In this document: positions 1,273 through 51,985 of the stretch, piece by piece
Position numbering within the stretch: the first letter of the stretch is position 1
How the letters are laid out: each line of letters starts with the position of its first letter
IMG/VR virus record: IMGVR_UViG_3300033183_000354
Coordinates: 1 to 64,000 of that record
Source: a virus
Reading direction: 5' to 3' (one strand)
Length of the DNA stretch: 64,000 nucleotides
Program-made: the position numbers and the translations under genes
The notes under the pieces: model-generated
The model's database searches: none
Told to the model about the DNA's origin: nothing
The model's input: the letters and a program-made list of their open reading frames with translations, nothing else

Positions 1273-4200
1273 CAAGAAGTAGAACAGTAGCGACAGCAAT
1301 TGGTAGAGTTGCAGCAGCAGATACAATTTCCTCAACTGGAACATTGAGTGTTGCTGGTGTAACAATGATTGATTCAGCTGGTGCATTACCTGATTCAGCA
1401 GATGCCTCTGCTGGTGATATGGTAATGACTTCAGATTCGAATGAATTGTTTATTAGTGATGGATCTGTTTGGTATAGTATTGCTCTGATTAATACCAATC
1501 CATACTTTACTGATTCTGGTACACCAGAAAGTACATATGCACTATCGACTGAAGAAAGTGCTACAACTGTTACACTGATTGCAGTTGATTCAGAAGGTAT
1601 TCCTATTACTTATTCTGCTGTTGCAGATTCTGATTTTAGTGGATTAGCAACTATATCTCAAGACTCAAGTGTGTTCACTATCACACCGTTAAGTGAAGAT
1701 TCTGCTACAACCACTTCCGGTACAATTACATTTAAAGCCAGTGATGGTGTTAATATAGCAACAGCATTATCGACATTTACTCTTACGTTCAAAATTGTGT
1801 ATACAAATTATACAGTATTATTAGCAAAAGCATCCGGAAATTCTGGTACAAATGCAGGTATTAGCGATTCATCAACTAGTAGTCAAACTGTTACCGTTAC
1901 AGGATCTCCTTCATTAACTTCATTTAGTCCATATAGACATGGTGGATATAGTTATTATTTTGATGGATCAGGTGATTATATTATTACAGGATCAGATACA
2001 ACTTTAGCCTTTGGCACTAGTGATTTTACAGTAGAAGCTTGGATTTATATTACGTCACTTTCTGCAATTTCTACAGTAATGACAAGTAGAGCTATTAGCA
2101 GCAGCTCGTATCTTTATTGGTCATTATTAATCCAAACAAATGGAAACTTAAGTTTTCAAACCAGAAATAGTGGAGGTACACAATATATTGCGCAATTTGA
2201 TGCTGGAATTACTACTAATACTTGGTATCATGTAGCAGCTGTTAGAGAAAGTGGCGTATTAACATGTTATGTTAATGGTATTGCTGGAAGCACAACAAGT
2301 GATGATAGTAGTCTTAATATGACAGAATCATATGTAAGTGTTGGAGGATTTATTTATCCAGGTTATACTTATATAATGAATGGTTATATCTCAGATGCTA
2401 GAGTAATAAAAGGAACTGCTTTATATACCGCTGACTTTACACCACCTACTAGTAGATTAACAGCAGTATCTGGCACATCACTACTTACTTGCCATCTCCC
2501 TTATCTTGCAGACGGATCTTCTAATGATCATACTTTGACAGTAAACGGAAATGTAACTGCAAAACCTTTTTCTCCATTTGATTATAAAGACTATACTGCT
2601 TCTTCCGATGGTGGTTCTTTCTATGTTCCAGGTGCAGCAGGAAACTATTTAACTCTTCCGGCTGGTACTGATTTTGCTATGGGTACTGGAGACTTTACTC
2701 ATGAATTTTGGATTTATCCAACTGGTTATTATGTGTATTATTATGGTGATGCTCACGGATTAGTCTGGAGTCAAGATGTAAATGGTACAAACTGGTTTGG
2801 TATAGGACTAGGAAGCCCTACAAGTCGCAACATTTATTTTAATTATGGTACTAGTGGCGGTGGTTCGAATGTTAATAGCAGTGGTGGTTATGGAAGCTGG
2901 ATTCCTAATATGTGGCACCATGTTGCTGTTGTAAGAAATAGTGGTACTTTAACTGTATATCTGAATGGTAAGGGTGGTACTGGTGTATCAGTGACTCAAG
3001 ACTTTAATAATACTACATATGTTCCAACTATTGGTAGATACACTCATACTGATGATAATAGATCAGAAGGTTGGATCTCTGATTATAGAGTAGTAAAAGG
3101 AACTGCAATTTATACTGCAGACTTTACGCCGCCGACTGCTCCACTCTCTACTCCTTCTGGTACTGTGTTACACTTAAAAGGTCAAGAAGGTAAAGTATAT
3201 GATGCATCACAAACTGCTAGTACATTAACATTAAATGGAAATGCAGTATCATCAACTGGACAAACAAAGTATGCTTCATCATCAATATATTTTGATGGCG
3301 CTAGTGATTATATTGAAATTCCTAATGATACGACTAACACACTCACAAATCAAAATTGGACTGTTGAAGCATGGATATATCCTACTAACGATTATTCTAC
3401 ATATAGAACTATTTTTGCTAAAAGAGTTTCAGGTAGTACTACAGCCGAATATGAAGGATACTTAGCTACTAGTACTGGATATGTAAGTTATTATGATGGC
3501 ACAACAGGATATGAAAGCACAACAGTTCTTACATCAAATCAATGGAGTCATGTAGCTTGGGTTCATACTCCAGGTAAAATTAACATATATGTTAATGGTA
3601 CTAATGTCTATTCGGTTAATGTAACCGAAGCTTCTGCTCTTAGCGAACCATTGGTTATAGGAGGAGCGAGAGGTTACAGCGAATGGTTTGGTGGATATAT
3701 TGAAGACTTTCGAGTCACAAAAGGATTAGTTCGATATCCATTTATTCCAACAAAAGAGACACTTACAGCAGTTTCAGGTACATCGCTTCTTACAGCTCAT
3801 GCGGCCACAATAACAGATGGTTCATCTAATTCACATAGTATATCTGCACATGGTAATTCTGCAGTATCAACCTTCGCTCCTAAACAAGGAATGTATTCAA
3901 TTGAATTTGATGGAAATAGTTCTGATTTAGAAATAACTGCAGATAGCACTCTCGCAGCTACTACTAATACATCTTGGACATTCGAAGGATGGTTTTATAG
4001 GACTGGCGCGCTTGGCCCCAATGGCTATACAGTAACAGTTGGTAGTGGTGGATCTGCAACAAGATGGGGATTAAATATCGGAGCAGCTAATGGTGTTATT
4101 ACTACTTTATTTGGCACTGGATCTTGGGCATGGCCCTATATTTACAGTTCTCCTAATAATGTAATTAGTTTAAATAAGTGGTATCATGTAGCGATTGTAA

Positions 4201-49652: not shown

Positions 49653-49658
49653 CAATTG

Positions 49659-49719
49659 TAGTGATGAAGCAGACCGAAAGATAGACTGGACACGGGGGCA
49701 GTACCCGTCAGCTCCACCA
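49659..49719 (+). ncRNA. ssrA: tmRNA, acceptor piece (permuted gene, 5' part)
   Basis: Carries the 3' end of a two-piece tmRNA. T-arm stem ACGGG / CCCGT (49692-49696, 49704-49708) with loop GGCAGTA, acceptor strand CAGCTCC (49709-49715), discriminator A and encoded CCA at 49717-49719. The acceptor strand pairs with GGGGCTG at 49873-49879, seven pairs with a G-U at position 3, the identity element for alanyl-tRNA synthetase. The 5' boundary is approximate. Order acceptor piece then coding piece is that of the permuted genes of alphaproteobacteria. The T-loop lacks the usual TTC. Confidence 0.9.
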
Positions 49720-49738
49720 TAAACACACGGTGAATGAC

Positions 49739-49885
49739 ATGCGTATCAAATTAAATTCAGGCGATGAGTATGATGCACTCACAAAAGCCAAGAAATATTT
49801 TAAGTGGCGCGCAGGTCAACGCAAAAAGATCAAGCGAGGCTACAATAAAAGACTTCGCCGTGTGCTTATGATGGGGCTGAACTAG
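49739..49885 (+). CDS. Basic 48-aa protein inside the tmRNA intervening segment
   Basis: Begins MRIKLNSGDEYDALTKAKKYF and continues with a Lys/Arg-rich helix (RAGQRKKIKRGYNKRLRR), ending LMMGLN. It fills the 153-base spacer between the two tmRNA pieces and its last 13 bases are the 5' end of the coding piece, so RNase P processing of the tmRNA would cut the message. A weak GGTGA lies 5 bases before the ATG. Small basic proteins of this kind are frequent in phages; nucleic-acid binding is likely from charge. Translation is unproven. Confidence 0.55.
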   Translation: MRIKLNSGDEYDALTKAKKYFKWRAGQRKKIKRGYNKRLRRVLMMGLN

Positions 49886-50045
49886 GATCGACAGGTATTG
49901 AATAGGGAAGTGGAGCTATCCCGCGCAAGCTGGGTTAACGCAAGAACTAAGTAACTGCAAACGATAACTTTGCACCTGTAGATTACGCTATCGCAGCATA
50001 ATCTAGCGGGCCAGTCCGGAGCCTAGGAACAGAATCCGGACACTT
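49873..50045 (+). ncRNA. ssrA: tmRNA, coding piece with proteolysis tag
   Basis: Starts GGGGCTGAACTAGGATCGAC, the canonical tmRNA 5' end. The resume codon GCA is at 49957 after AAGTAACT, and the tag frame 49957-50001 reads ANDNFAPVDYAIAA then TAA, closely like alphaproteobacterial tags. The stop codon lies in helix 5, TAGATTA / TAATCTA (49979-49985, 49999-50005). A further stem GTCCGGA / TCCGGAC (50014-50020, 50035-50041) follows. The 3' boundary is approximate. With the acceptor piece it should rescue stalled ribosomes and mark proteins for ClpXP. Confidence 0.92.
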
Positions 50046-50250: not shown

Positions 50251-50600
50251 TGAAAACGCTTTTATCAGCCCTCGTGCTGCTGGCCTTAGTTTCTACCACA
50301 GAAGCTAAGTGGTTTCAGAAACCCGTACAGTGTTCGACAGGAGAAGATGTCTATAGTACATTGATCGAACCATACGATTTACAGCCGATGTTTGCGGCTG
50401 TGGCAAGTATCGTTACACCGGATGCATCATCTCCGGCAGTATTAATCTTTTATATGAATATAGATACGGGAAGATTTCTTATTGTTGAAACTGACGATAT
50501 AAGTACATGTATTATTGGAATTGGTGATGGTGTTGATTTTAATATTACGCCAGAAGAGATGAGAAAATTTTTATTAAATGAAAACGACTCTCAGTTTTAG
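50250..50600 (+). CDS. Exported hypothetical, 116 aa
   Basis: Signal peptide MKTLLSALVLLALVSTTEA followed by a small alpha/beta domain with cysteines at about 28 and 88 (VQCSTGED; ISTCIIG). Periplasmic location predicted. Overlaps the oxygenase gene by 23 bases. Function unknown. Confidence 0.6.
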   Translation: MKTLLSALVLLALVSTTEAKWFQKPVQCSTGEDVYSTLIEPYDLQPMFAAVASIVTPDASSPAVLIFYMNIDTGRFLIVETDDISTCIIGIGDGVDFNITPEEMRKFLLNENDSQF

Positions 50601-51096
50601 TGATAAGAAAAAGATAGTACAAAATAGAAAGTTATTGCCTTATAAATTCATTGGGAAAGTGTCTCAACAGTTTATTGAAGATTGTATTTCAGATTTAAAT
50701 CATTTAGAAGACACTACATTAAAATCAAAAAATAATAATATTGATTTCGGCGATTATTCTTTCTTAGACCATTATCATCAAAAGCATCTGAATAATATAG
50801 AATTGCCTAATATATTCAAATTATTTGGTGAAGTCTATGATTTAAGATATGGGATCCTAGACAAAGATCAATCAATTCCTCCTCATGTTGATAAGCCTGA
50901 TGGCCATCGATTCATGTGTATCATCAAAGGTAAGCATGAATATGTTACTCAAGTAGAAGAAATAAATAAAGTTGAAATGAATGAAGGTGAACTTTGGTTT
51001 ATTAATGCTAGTTTTAAGCATAAAGTAATAAACACTGGTCATCAAGATAGAATTGCTTTGTTAGGAAAATTTAATGACATCTCTCAATTATTATGA
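50578..51096 (+). CDS. 2OG/Fe(II) oxygenase, aspartyl/asparaginyl-hydroxylase-like (1)
   Basis: 172 aa cupin-type dioxygenase. Iron ligands H103 and D105 in IPPHVDKPDG and H148 in ASFKHKVIN; R158 in HQDRIALLG should bind 2-oxoglutarate. The family hydroxylates Asp/Asn or Pro residues in proteins and related small molecules. It overlaps the radical SAM gene, so the two likely act in one pathway. Substrate unknown. Confidence 0.75.
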   Translation: MKTTLSFSDKKKIVQNRKLLPYKFIGKVSQQFIEDCISDLNHLEDTTLKSKNNNIDFGDYSFLDHYHQKHLNNIELPNIFKLFGEVYDLRYGILDKDQSIPPHVDKPDGHRFMCIIKGKHEYVTQVEEINKVEMNEGELWFINASFKHKVINTGHQDRIALLGKFNDISQLL

Positions 51097-51985
51097 ATTA
51101 AATCCTCGTGATAATCATTTTACTGATGTTGTAGTTGATGTTACGCATCGATGTAATATGGCATGCAAAAACTGCTATATTCCAAATAGATCTATACCAG
51201 ATATGGACGCTGATCAAATGATCGAGGCGTTATCTCAGTTTCCTAAGAAAGTGACTGTAAGGATCATTGGTGCAGAACCAACGATGAGACAGGATTTGCC
51301 AGATCTTATTTCTCGTATACGTAAAACTGGTCATCGTATTACTTTATTGACGAATGGTCTTCGTCTCGCACGAGAAAATTATGTAAAGACATTGAAAGAT
51401 TCTGGTCTACGTAATCTATATCTATCGATGAATGGGGTGGATAATGACGATTGGTACGAAAAGATCGATGAGATGAGATGTGCTGATAAAAAAATTAAAG
51501 CCATGTTATATGCACACCAATATAAACTCCTTCGTGATATCGGTTGTATTATCGTTGATCATGTAAATCTTGATGCGCCTTCTCGTATGATCTCTCTCCT
51601 AAATAAACATGACATCGCTAACGTTACAATTCGTTTTAAAACAATTGGTCAAATTGGCAGATTTATGGGAGAAGAACATCAGATGAAAATGGACGATTTA
51701 ATTCGAGTAATGTCAGATCAATTAAATGTGTCATATGATTATATCAAGAGCTGGCAAGATCAATGGATATATCCAGAAAATAGACAGGAAAAAGATAGTT
51801 TCCTATTCCCTCTTAATCCTAAAAGTACACGTGTTTATAATGGCATATGGATTAAACTTGTTAATTGGAATAGCTATGACAAATCAACGGTGTTAAGTGA
51901 TAGTACTCGAAGAGGAAGACTGACAGAAAACTTTAAAGTAGCTCCGTTTTTTGAACACGTAACTTTAAATGAAAATGGTTATTAA
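51074..51985 (+). CDS. Radical SAM enzyme
   Basis: 303 aa. CxxxCxxC cluster motif C27-C31-C34 in VTHRCNMACKNCYIP, the GAEPT variant of the GGEP motif near 74-78, and TLLTNGLRL. The MoaA/peptide-maturase-like first half is intact; no C-terminal SPASM cysteines are seen. Translationally coupled to a 2OG oxygenase before and two bases ahead of a GNAT-like gene after. It could modify a peptide, a surface sugar or a nucleobase; in some phages radical SAM proteins belong to base-hypermodification sets. Confidence 0.85.
   Translation: MTSLNYYELNPRDNHFTDVVVDVTHRCNMACKNCYIPNRSIPDMDADQMIEALSQFPKKVTVRIIGAEPTMRQDLPDLISRIRKTGHRITLLTNGLRLARENYVKTLKDSGLRNLYLSMNGVDNDDWYEKIDEMRCADKKIKAMLYAHQYKLLRDIGCIIVDHVNLDAPSRMISLLNKHDIANVTIRFKTIGQIGRFMGEEHQMKMDDLIRVMSDQLNVSYDYIKSWQDQWIYPENRQEKDSFLFPLNPKSTRVYNGIWIKLVNWNSYDKSTVLSDSTRRGRLTENFKVAPFFEHVTLNENGY

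Follow-up and report, generated by a model that had tools for sequence, protein, structure and literature searches.

The intervening segment of a permuted two-piece phage tmRNA is very probably a cargo slot for small genes

tmRNA is the RNA that releases stuck ribosomes, and its permuted two-piece form (Rfam families RF04321 and RF01849) is known from Alphaproteobacteria, from other lineages and from marine phages. In the part of the tmRNA database paper available to us, a tRNA gene is reported in one intervening segment (IVS) and a repeat in another, with no protein gene (PMC11915505). A full-text literature search, with the older two-piece tmRNA papers outside its scope, returned no description that we recognised of protein genes in tmRNA IVSs. 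Here we describe a phage tmRNA whose IVS contains a small protein gene. Comparison of sequences indicates that the segment which would be excised from the two-piece precursor is very probably a cargo slot for small genes, and that the gene found here is one such cargo. Small protein genes in this position seem to be present in many marine phages.

The stretch of DNA analyzed (the window, 64,000 nucleotides) is taken from a virus record of 152,719 bases. When ten large proteins of the window were compared with PHROGs, the matches included a terminase large subunit, a tail sheath, a portal, a major head protein and a DnaB-like helicase, and the phage is therefore a tailed one with a contractile tail. 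Rfam matched RF04321 (tmRNA_permuted) at 49658-50001 on the plus strand with 103.9 bits against a gathering score of 47, and RF01849 (alpha_tmRNA) with 96.9 bits against a cut-off of 50. The two pieces have a 7-bp acceptor stem (CAGCTCC/GGGGCTG) and a tag frame with a stop codon. Because GGGGCTG at 49873-49879 pairs with CAGCTCC at 49709-49715, the coding piece begins at G49873, and since the acceptor piece ends with its CCA at 49719, the IVS comprises the 153 nt between them. Processing of this precursor into two pieces is predicted from these features. ARAGORN reported no tmRNA gene in the window, although the Rfam match is clear, and further phage tmRNAs with a long IVS may therefore lack annotation. 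The features of the locus are as follows.

49658..49719, plus strand: acceptor piece of the permuted tmRNA (RF04321 alignment)
49692-49708, 49709-49715, 49716 and 49717-49719, plus strand: T arm, 3' acceptor strand, A49716 and CCA of the acceptor piece (RF04321 alignment)
49720..49872, plus strand: IVS, 153 nt, the probable cargo slot (sequence and Rfam)
49720..49734, plus strand: predicted clamp helix, 5' strand (+1..+15), paired with the 3' strand at 14 of 15 positions (predicted folding, pairing)
49729..49733, plus strand: Shine-Dalgarno-like GGTGA, separated from the ATG by 5 nt and lying within the clamp (sequence; predicted pairing)
49739..49885, plus strand: 48-codon ORF of the phrog_16066 family, encoding a Lys/Arg-rich protein for which three helices are predicted (sequence, PHROGs, AlphaFold)
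49854..49868, plus strand: predicted 3' strand of the clamp (-19..-5), which also codes for codons near the end of the ORF (predicted folding)
49872..49873, plus strand: expected RNase P cut, T49872/G49873 (from the tRNA-like fold and acceptor pairing)
49873..50044 (end approximate), plus strand: tmRNA coding piece (RF01849)
49957..50001, plus strand: tag reading frame ANDNFAPVDYAIAA, stop TAA (translated by eye; the RF04321 match ends at 50001)

Downstream of the tmRNA, at 50578-51096, the window encodes a protein with an above-cut-off match to the Pfam aspartyl/asparaginyl beta-hydroxylase family, and the next ORF (51074-51985) contains a cysteine motif which we take to be reminiscent of radical SAM enzymes.

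An earlier, sequence-only reading of this DNA had noticed that a 48-codon ORF fills the spacer between the tmRNA pieces and runs 13 bases into the coding piece, and both statements were confirmed by the coordinates, the RF04321 score and the acceptor pairing. The ORF extends from the ATG at 49739 to the TAG at 49883-49885, which forms nt 11-13 of the coding piece; an alternative GTG start at 49730 would give 51 codons. Residues 8-43 of the 48-residue product matched the phrog_16066 profile significantly (E 1.6e-7), a family which has no assigned function, and a Pfam search of the protein returned no families. The AlphaFold model (mean pLDDT 86) contains three helices, the last of which is long and basic. 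A fold search gave no PDB match; in BFVD its one match was weak (E 0.35), to a protein of 53 aa from Mycobacterium phage Adawi. By tblastn, weak matches were obtained in 10 phage records (best E 0.1). The likeliest guess, based on the Lys/Arg-rich long helix of the model, is that the protein may have a nucleic-acid-binding accessory role. We also considered a homing endonuclease as the identity of the ORF and rejected it, as neither PHROGs nor Pfam gave an endonuclease family match. A group I intron carrying a homing endonuclease was likewise discarded, the window containing only the two tmRNA matches at the Rfam gathering score.

A scan of viral contigs identified 72 viral loci which encode relatives of the window ORF. 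In an alignment of 27 family members the core KKIKR-x-YNKR was almost fixed, and 17 of the 27 matched the phrog_16066 profile. For the window gene and its four nearest embedded relatives, pN/pS was 0.22 in frame versus 1.07 and 1.87 in the shifted frames, with 6, 4 and 14 variable columns at the three codon positions. The second embedded group gave a pN/pS of 0.54 from few changes, with 4, 7 and 9 variable columns (L016 excluded), which taken alone is weak support. Comparison of these relatives shows that the window ORF belongs to a family of phage proteins that is conserved and subject to purifying selection. The sequence-only reading had named a lack of homologues, together with frame-disrupting changes, as grounds for giving up the gene, and on examination of both the gene stands.

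At 14 of the 72 loci (L001-L005, L007, L012-L017, L019 and L020) the gene lies inside a permuted tmRNA, as judged by a motif search over all 72 loci and by Rfam over 40 of them. Near the gene at the other 58 loci the motif search found no acceptor-type CCA, and the 26 of these which were scanned with Rfam gave no tmRNA match. A permuted tmRNA was present in six of the 19 whole records searched, and two records of 133 and 139 kb, which may be fragments, carry the gene with no RF04321 match. As most relatives have no tmRNA around them, and some of these are in long records with no match, the proposal that the protein binds the RNA from which it comes is unsupported and is unlikely to describe the general function of the family. 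In a tree of 43 distinct family members, built from 48 columns only and rooted at the midpoint, the 12 embedded members fell on one side of a branch (96/92), and the simplest reading is that the family may have entered the slot once and was then transferred as slot cargo. Among 289 alphaproteobacterial genomes the family was represented by a weak partial match with an internal stop in a single genome.

The position of the stop codon within mature tmRNA, which the sequence-only reading had also pointed out, proved to be the rule in the embedded family of the window and not in the slot generally. In the window and in 13 embedded relatives with a visible stop, the ORF ends inside the coding piece (L013 runs off its contig). 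Among the matches listed, just 45 of 162 slot-filling ORFs stop in the tmRNA, most cargo ORFs stopping inside the IVS. From the position of the stop in the window family, loss of the stop codon after processing is predicted, and by analogy with ArfA the gene could be a backup rescue system: the RNase P cut would remove the stop, free protein would be made only when tmRNA fails, and with working tmRNA the ribosomes on the excised piece would be rescued and the protein tagged. The shared stop position speaks for such a backup, which we nevertheless regard as very unlikely in view of the small proportion of cargo ORFs that stop in the tmRNA and of the ordinary stops found in relatives outside tmRNA. 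In addition, the TAG is part of conserved tmRNA sequence and is not conserved across the protein family: in L003 it is CAG and reading continues, and the second embedded group passes this stretch of tmRNA in another frame. A Pfam search gave no match for the window protein and nine weak families over the 27 members, none of which was ArfA. The same search, over the same proteins, gave no family match by which ArfA or other known rescue factors could be accepted as the identity of the gene.

To place the window among other phages, pattern scans of viral contigs for permuted tmRNA were combined with the window itself. After merging of identical IVSs and removal of 19 pattern matches lacking a parsable acceptor stem (1 of them bacterial), at least 303 different viral IVSs of 5-499 nt were obtained. 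Within IVSs of 80 nt or more, ORFs of at least 25 aa formed at least 70 clusters, of which at least 26 had two or more members. Among the matches listed, 162 of 206 long viral IVSs were filled by an ORF and 44 had no filling ORF. An open frame by itself is unremarkable, about 15% being filled after shuffling (9.4 of 62 clusters of viral IVSs, among the matches listed). For these 62 non-redundant clusters of viral IVSs of at least 110 nt, each entering as the filled fraction of its members, the ORF-filled total was 40.1 versus 9.4 expected (sd 2.5) among the matches listed. With ATG starts only, the same clusters gave 37.0 versus 4.7, and on the antisense strand 11.3 versus 11.5. Pairwise in-frame pN/pS was below 1 in 23 of 26 cargo families among the matches listed; the exceptions were F24, with a value above 1, and two families for which it was undefined. 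The shuffle and frame controls weigh more than these ratios, because clustering of families by protein similarity favours low pN/pS. The controls show that ORFs of many other families, unrelated by sequence, are common in the long IVSs of viral permuted tmRNAs. A chance ORF was ruled out for the window gene because of its homologues at 72 loci and frame-specific purifying selection, together with the shuffle control.

Several cargo families also have relatives outside tmRNA. The counts of these are lower bounds, since anything up to 520 nt upstream of a coding piece was treated as inside; this test missed the tmRNA of L012. A PHROGs search with 10 cargo ORFs of other families gave no match at E 0.01. 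By tblastn in phage records F10, F5, F1, F8 and F4 had no matches, and F2 matched the four records of the isolate Melnitz only. A scan for another permuted tmRNA type with a long IVS found nothing, although the pattern used may be wrong. Two of the viral IVSs, both of 177 nt (L168 and L313), contain two overlapping ORFs with Shine-Dalgarno-like sites, a short acidic one (23-25 aa) followed by a hydrophobic one of family F1. The longest IVS among the viral matches listed (L115, 499 nt) has two ORFs in series (34 and 120 aa), the second of which has relatives outside tmRNA in many other loci.

Melnitz (MZ577097, L512) has a permuted tmRNA with an IVS ORF which by eye resembles family F9. In all four Melnitz records this ORF lies under the annotation SsrA with no CDS, and the F2 relative, which has a gene annotation, lies immediately upstream of the tmRNA; in other phages F2 is IVS cargo. 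In the part of their paper available to us, the Melnitz authors describe the two-piece tmRNA and a riboswitch and do not mention the IVS ORF (PMC9004378). In L512 the annotated tmRNA feature (2693-3145) covers the CDS-less IVS ORF (2805-2927), the Rfam match starts at 2722, and a glutamine riboswitch match (3107-3155) lies directly behind the tmRNA.

The content of the slot differs between phages. The IVSs of L007 and L016 are identical at 163 of 164 bases and their flanks do not match, the last 70 nt of the acceptor side being 68% alike and the coding piece 53%. Conversely, L014, with a filled slot, and L515, with a 25-nt IVS, represent one locus with similar neighbours and with tmRNA halves 92% and 90% identical; the L515 record has a free copy of the window gene family elsewhere (L025). 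Flanks are shared pairwise by L014/L454, L454/L515 and L014/L515, and the contents of the three slots are the window family in L014, F17 in L454 and nothing in L515. Among the matches listed, 42 of the 89 pairs of IVSs at least 85% identical had neither flank similar and 34 had both, and 74 same-locus pairs had different IVS content. One locus can thus carry varied cargo or none, and one cargo is found at unrelated loci, as at an exchange hot spot. Of the 21 pairs listed, 9 had acceptor stems that differed, with both strands changed and pairing kept; pairing was therefore preserved around the same cargo. Comparison of these loci shows that slot content is gained, lost and exchanged between phages, with a foldable tmRNA kept on both sides. 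The view that this is a hitch-hiking gene, one of two possibilities offered by the sequence-only reading, is strongly supported by the free-standing members of the family, by the filled and empty slots at one locus and by movement of the IVS between unrelated phages.

The swap examples are metagenome contigs and their breakpoints coincide with conserved tmRNA arms, and these might be assembly chimeras joined at the arms, in which case the exchange would be unreal and the ORFs could still be real. We consider this highly improbable, since the acceptor stems flanking a shared IVS have changed in concert on their two strands, L016 and L017, which are contigs from different samples, have the same arrangement, and the four Melnitz isolate records also have an IVS ORF.

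Host IVSs were compared in the same way. Bacterial IVSs of at least 80 nt were filled somewhat more often than expected (12 of 22 versus 7.8 in shuffles), and part of this excess is due to the viral-looking contigs L494 and L509. Both come from MAGs and have ORFs resembling viral cargo, and the MAG which holds L494 (genome G021, Rhodobacteraceae) has at least 8 permuted tmRNA matches; the two contigs are therefore probably viral. Permuted tmRNA was present in 178 of 190 alphaproteobacterial genomes, and at least 3 of the alphaproteobacterial matches listed span more than 300 nt; two of the three were parsable, with no ORF filling the IVS from its start. Of four host stretches examined for long IVSs, two had IVSs of 165 and 232 nt with no ORF filling from the start, one had an IVS of 44 nt and one was unparsed. 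When bacterial and archaeal genomes were scanned for IVSs in the range of about 105-165 nt, 37 stretches were retrieved, of which 36 were parsable.

Predicted folding of the window precursor joins the ends of the IVS in a helix that continues the acceptor stem (z -2.99), which we refer to as the clamp. Across 77 reduced long viral IVSs, among the matches listed, 723 of 847 cells were paired between positions +1..+11 after the CCA and positions -5..-15 ahead of the coding piece, versus 512 with shuffled partners (sd 11, maximum 551 of 2000). Several of the pairs occur as CG, GC, TA and AT. The alignment of IVS ends thus shows a covarying helix extending the acceptor stem, and cargo of very different length therefore sits in the loop of one hairpin. 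Bacterial IVSs have the clamp in the same register and weaker, and the clamp is therefore probably older than the cargo. Given this clear RNA constraint on the IVS ends, the IVS could be an RNA spacer only, with its frames untranslated and their conservation due to RNA function. This is scarcely credible, the least probable of the readings considered, in view of the frame-specific selection, of an ORF excess that is large and on the sense strand only, and of relatives outside tmRNA which keep the same protein. Conservation by RNA function alone was rejected on the frame-specific selection and the same protein in the non-tmRNA relatives.

In the window the clamp is predicted to bury the ribosome-binding site, GGTGA being inside it. 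Among the matches listed, 32 of 35 reduced filled IVSs with a Shine-Dalgarno site of at least 4 nt have the site starting within +1..+12, and the predicted probability that it pairs with the 3' end region averages 0.61 over the 35. When only the first 60 nt of the IVS have been made, the sites (among the matches listed) are unpaired with a predicted mean probability of 0.48, and early access to them would therefore be only partial. The sequence-only reading had proposed that maturation of the tmRNA and translation of the ORF are mutually exclusive on one transcript. This is plausible on the predicted fold, for a reason new to that proposal, namely that the clamp would hold both the Shine-Dalgarno-like site and the last codons of the ORF. 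The switch which it also proposed has, in the same way, a predicted structural basis. As a whole, the interpretation given by that reading is partly supported.

Such a switch might act in cis, the ORF being kept for the control that its translation or its product exerts on maturation of its own tmRNA, either through ribosomes opening the clamp and acceptor stem or through the basic protein binding its own precursor. The Shine-Dalgarno sites in the clamp (that of the window and the 32 of 35 among the matches listed) and the overlap of the clamp with the last ORF codons favour this. Pairing of a leader with the 3' RCCA is also described, in the part of the source available to us, as inhibiting RNase P binding and formation of the catalytic complex (PMC9433436), so that a ribosome could matter either way: it could hinder maturation, or open a paired RCCA and help RNase P. 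We nevertheless think a cis switch unlikely. Cargo can be replaced by unrelated families or by nothing at one locus, and most relatives of the gene have no tmRNA nearby; therefore no particular protein is needed. In addition, the clamp also occurs, weaker, in bacterial IVSs, and the start of the IVS at the clamp may be enough to explain why the Shine-Dalgarno site falls within it.

For the cargo slot, the simplest account is a tolerant loop, in which the clamp would join the tmRNA halves whatever lies between them and small genes would be harmless there. Cargo probably moves by ordinary phage recombination, for which the conserved arms of the tmRNA and the ends of the clamp would provide short stretches of homology; the short shared arms are observed and the recombination process is inferred. 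Translation of the cargo is suggested by the Shine-Dalgarno sites, the starts and the selection. We suggest tentatively that the gene would be translated on the nascent precursor, once its start site has been made and while the 3' strand of the clamp, which would follow more than 100 nt later, cannot yet pair. Folding would then hide the Shine-Dalgarno site, RNase P and 3' processing would remove the IVS, and the tmRNA would mature, one transcript giving a short burst of small protein and then tmRNA. It is possible, if doubtful, that the tmRNA precursor of many marine phages is in this way a timed device with two products from one transcript. The clamp hairpin would permit translation of the cargo only during RNA synthesis, and its closing would shut the ribosome-binding site, gate RNase P and convert the molecule to tmRNA. 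Where the stop of the cargo is in the coding piece, tmRNA of the kind just made would rescue a ribosome still on the excised segment, and phages would use the slot generally to express small proteins that can be swapped.

If the segment is a cargo slot, a gene for a non-coding RNA would serve at the same time as a place where protein genes are expressed and exchanged, and this would offer an explanation for the long IVSs of many viral permuted tmRNAs and the short ones of most host tmRNAs. Recognition of the slot exposes small phage genes hidden within tmRNA features, such as that of the Melnitz isolates, and would provide a clean system for studying the competition of translation, RNA folding and RNase P on a single molecule.

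The window tmRNA resembles the known permuted two-piece tmRNAs in the order of its pieces, its tRNA-like pairing and its tag frame, and differs in that its IVS encodes a protein and is exchanged. The tmRNA group I introns that carry homing endonuclease genes, described in the part of the source available to us, also have a protein gene in a part removed from the precursor (PMC11915505); in the window, however, it is the permutation spacer that would be removed, and the tmRNA would be left as two pieces. Escherichia coli arfA, according to the portion of the source available to us, is a message from which RNA processing can remove the stop codon, and it is tied to trans-translation (PMC10107115). 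The window gene, in contrast, has no sequence-family match to it, and most slot cargo ORFs among the matches listed stop inside the IVS. Melnitz ssrA is likewise a permuted tmRNA with an IVS ORF, and differs in carrying another cargo, F9-like by eye and lacking a gene annotation. Like phage exchange hot spots, the slot has variable content between conserved flanks and this content moves between phages; unlike them, it is flanked by the two halves of a single RNA gene, and its cargo lies within the precursor.
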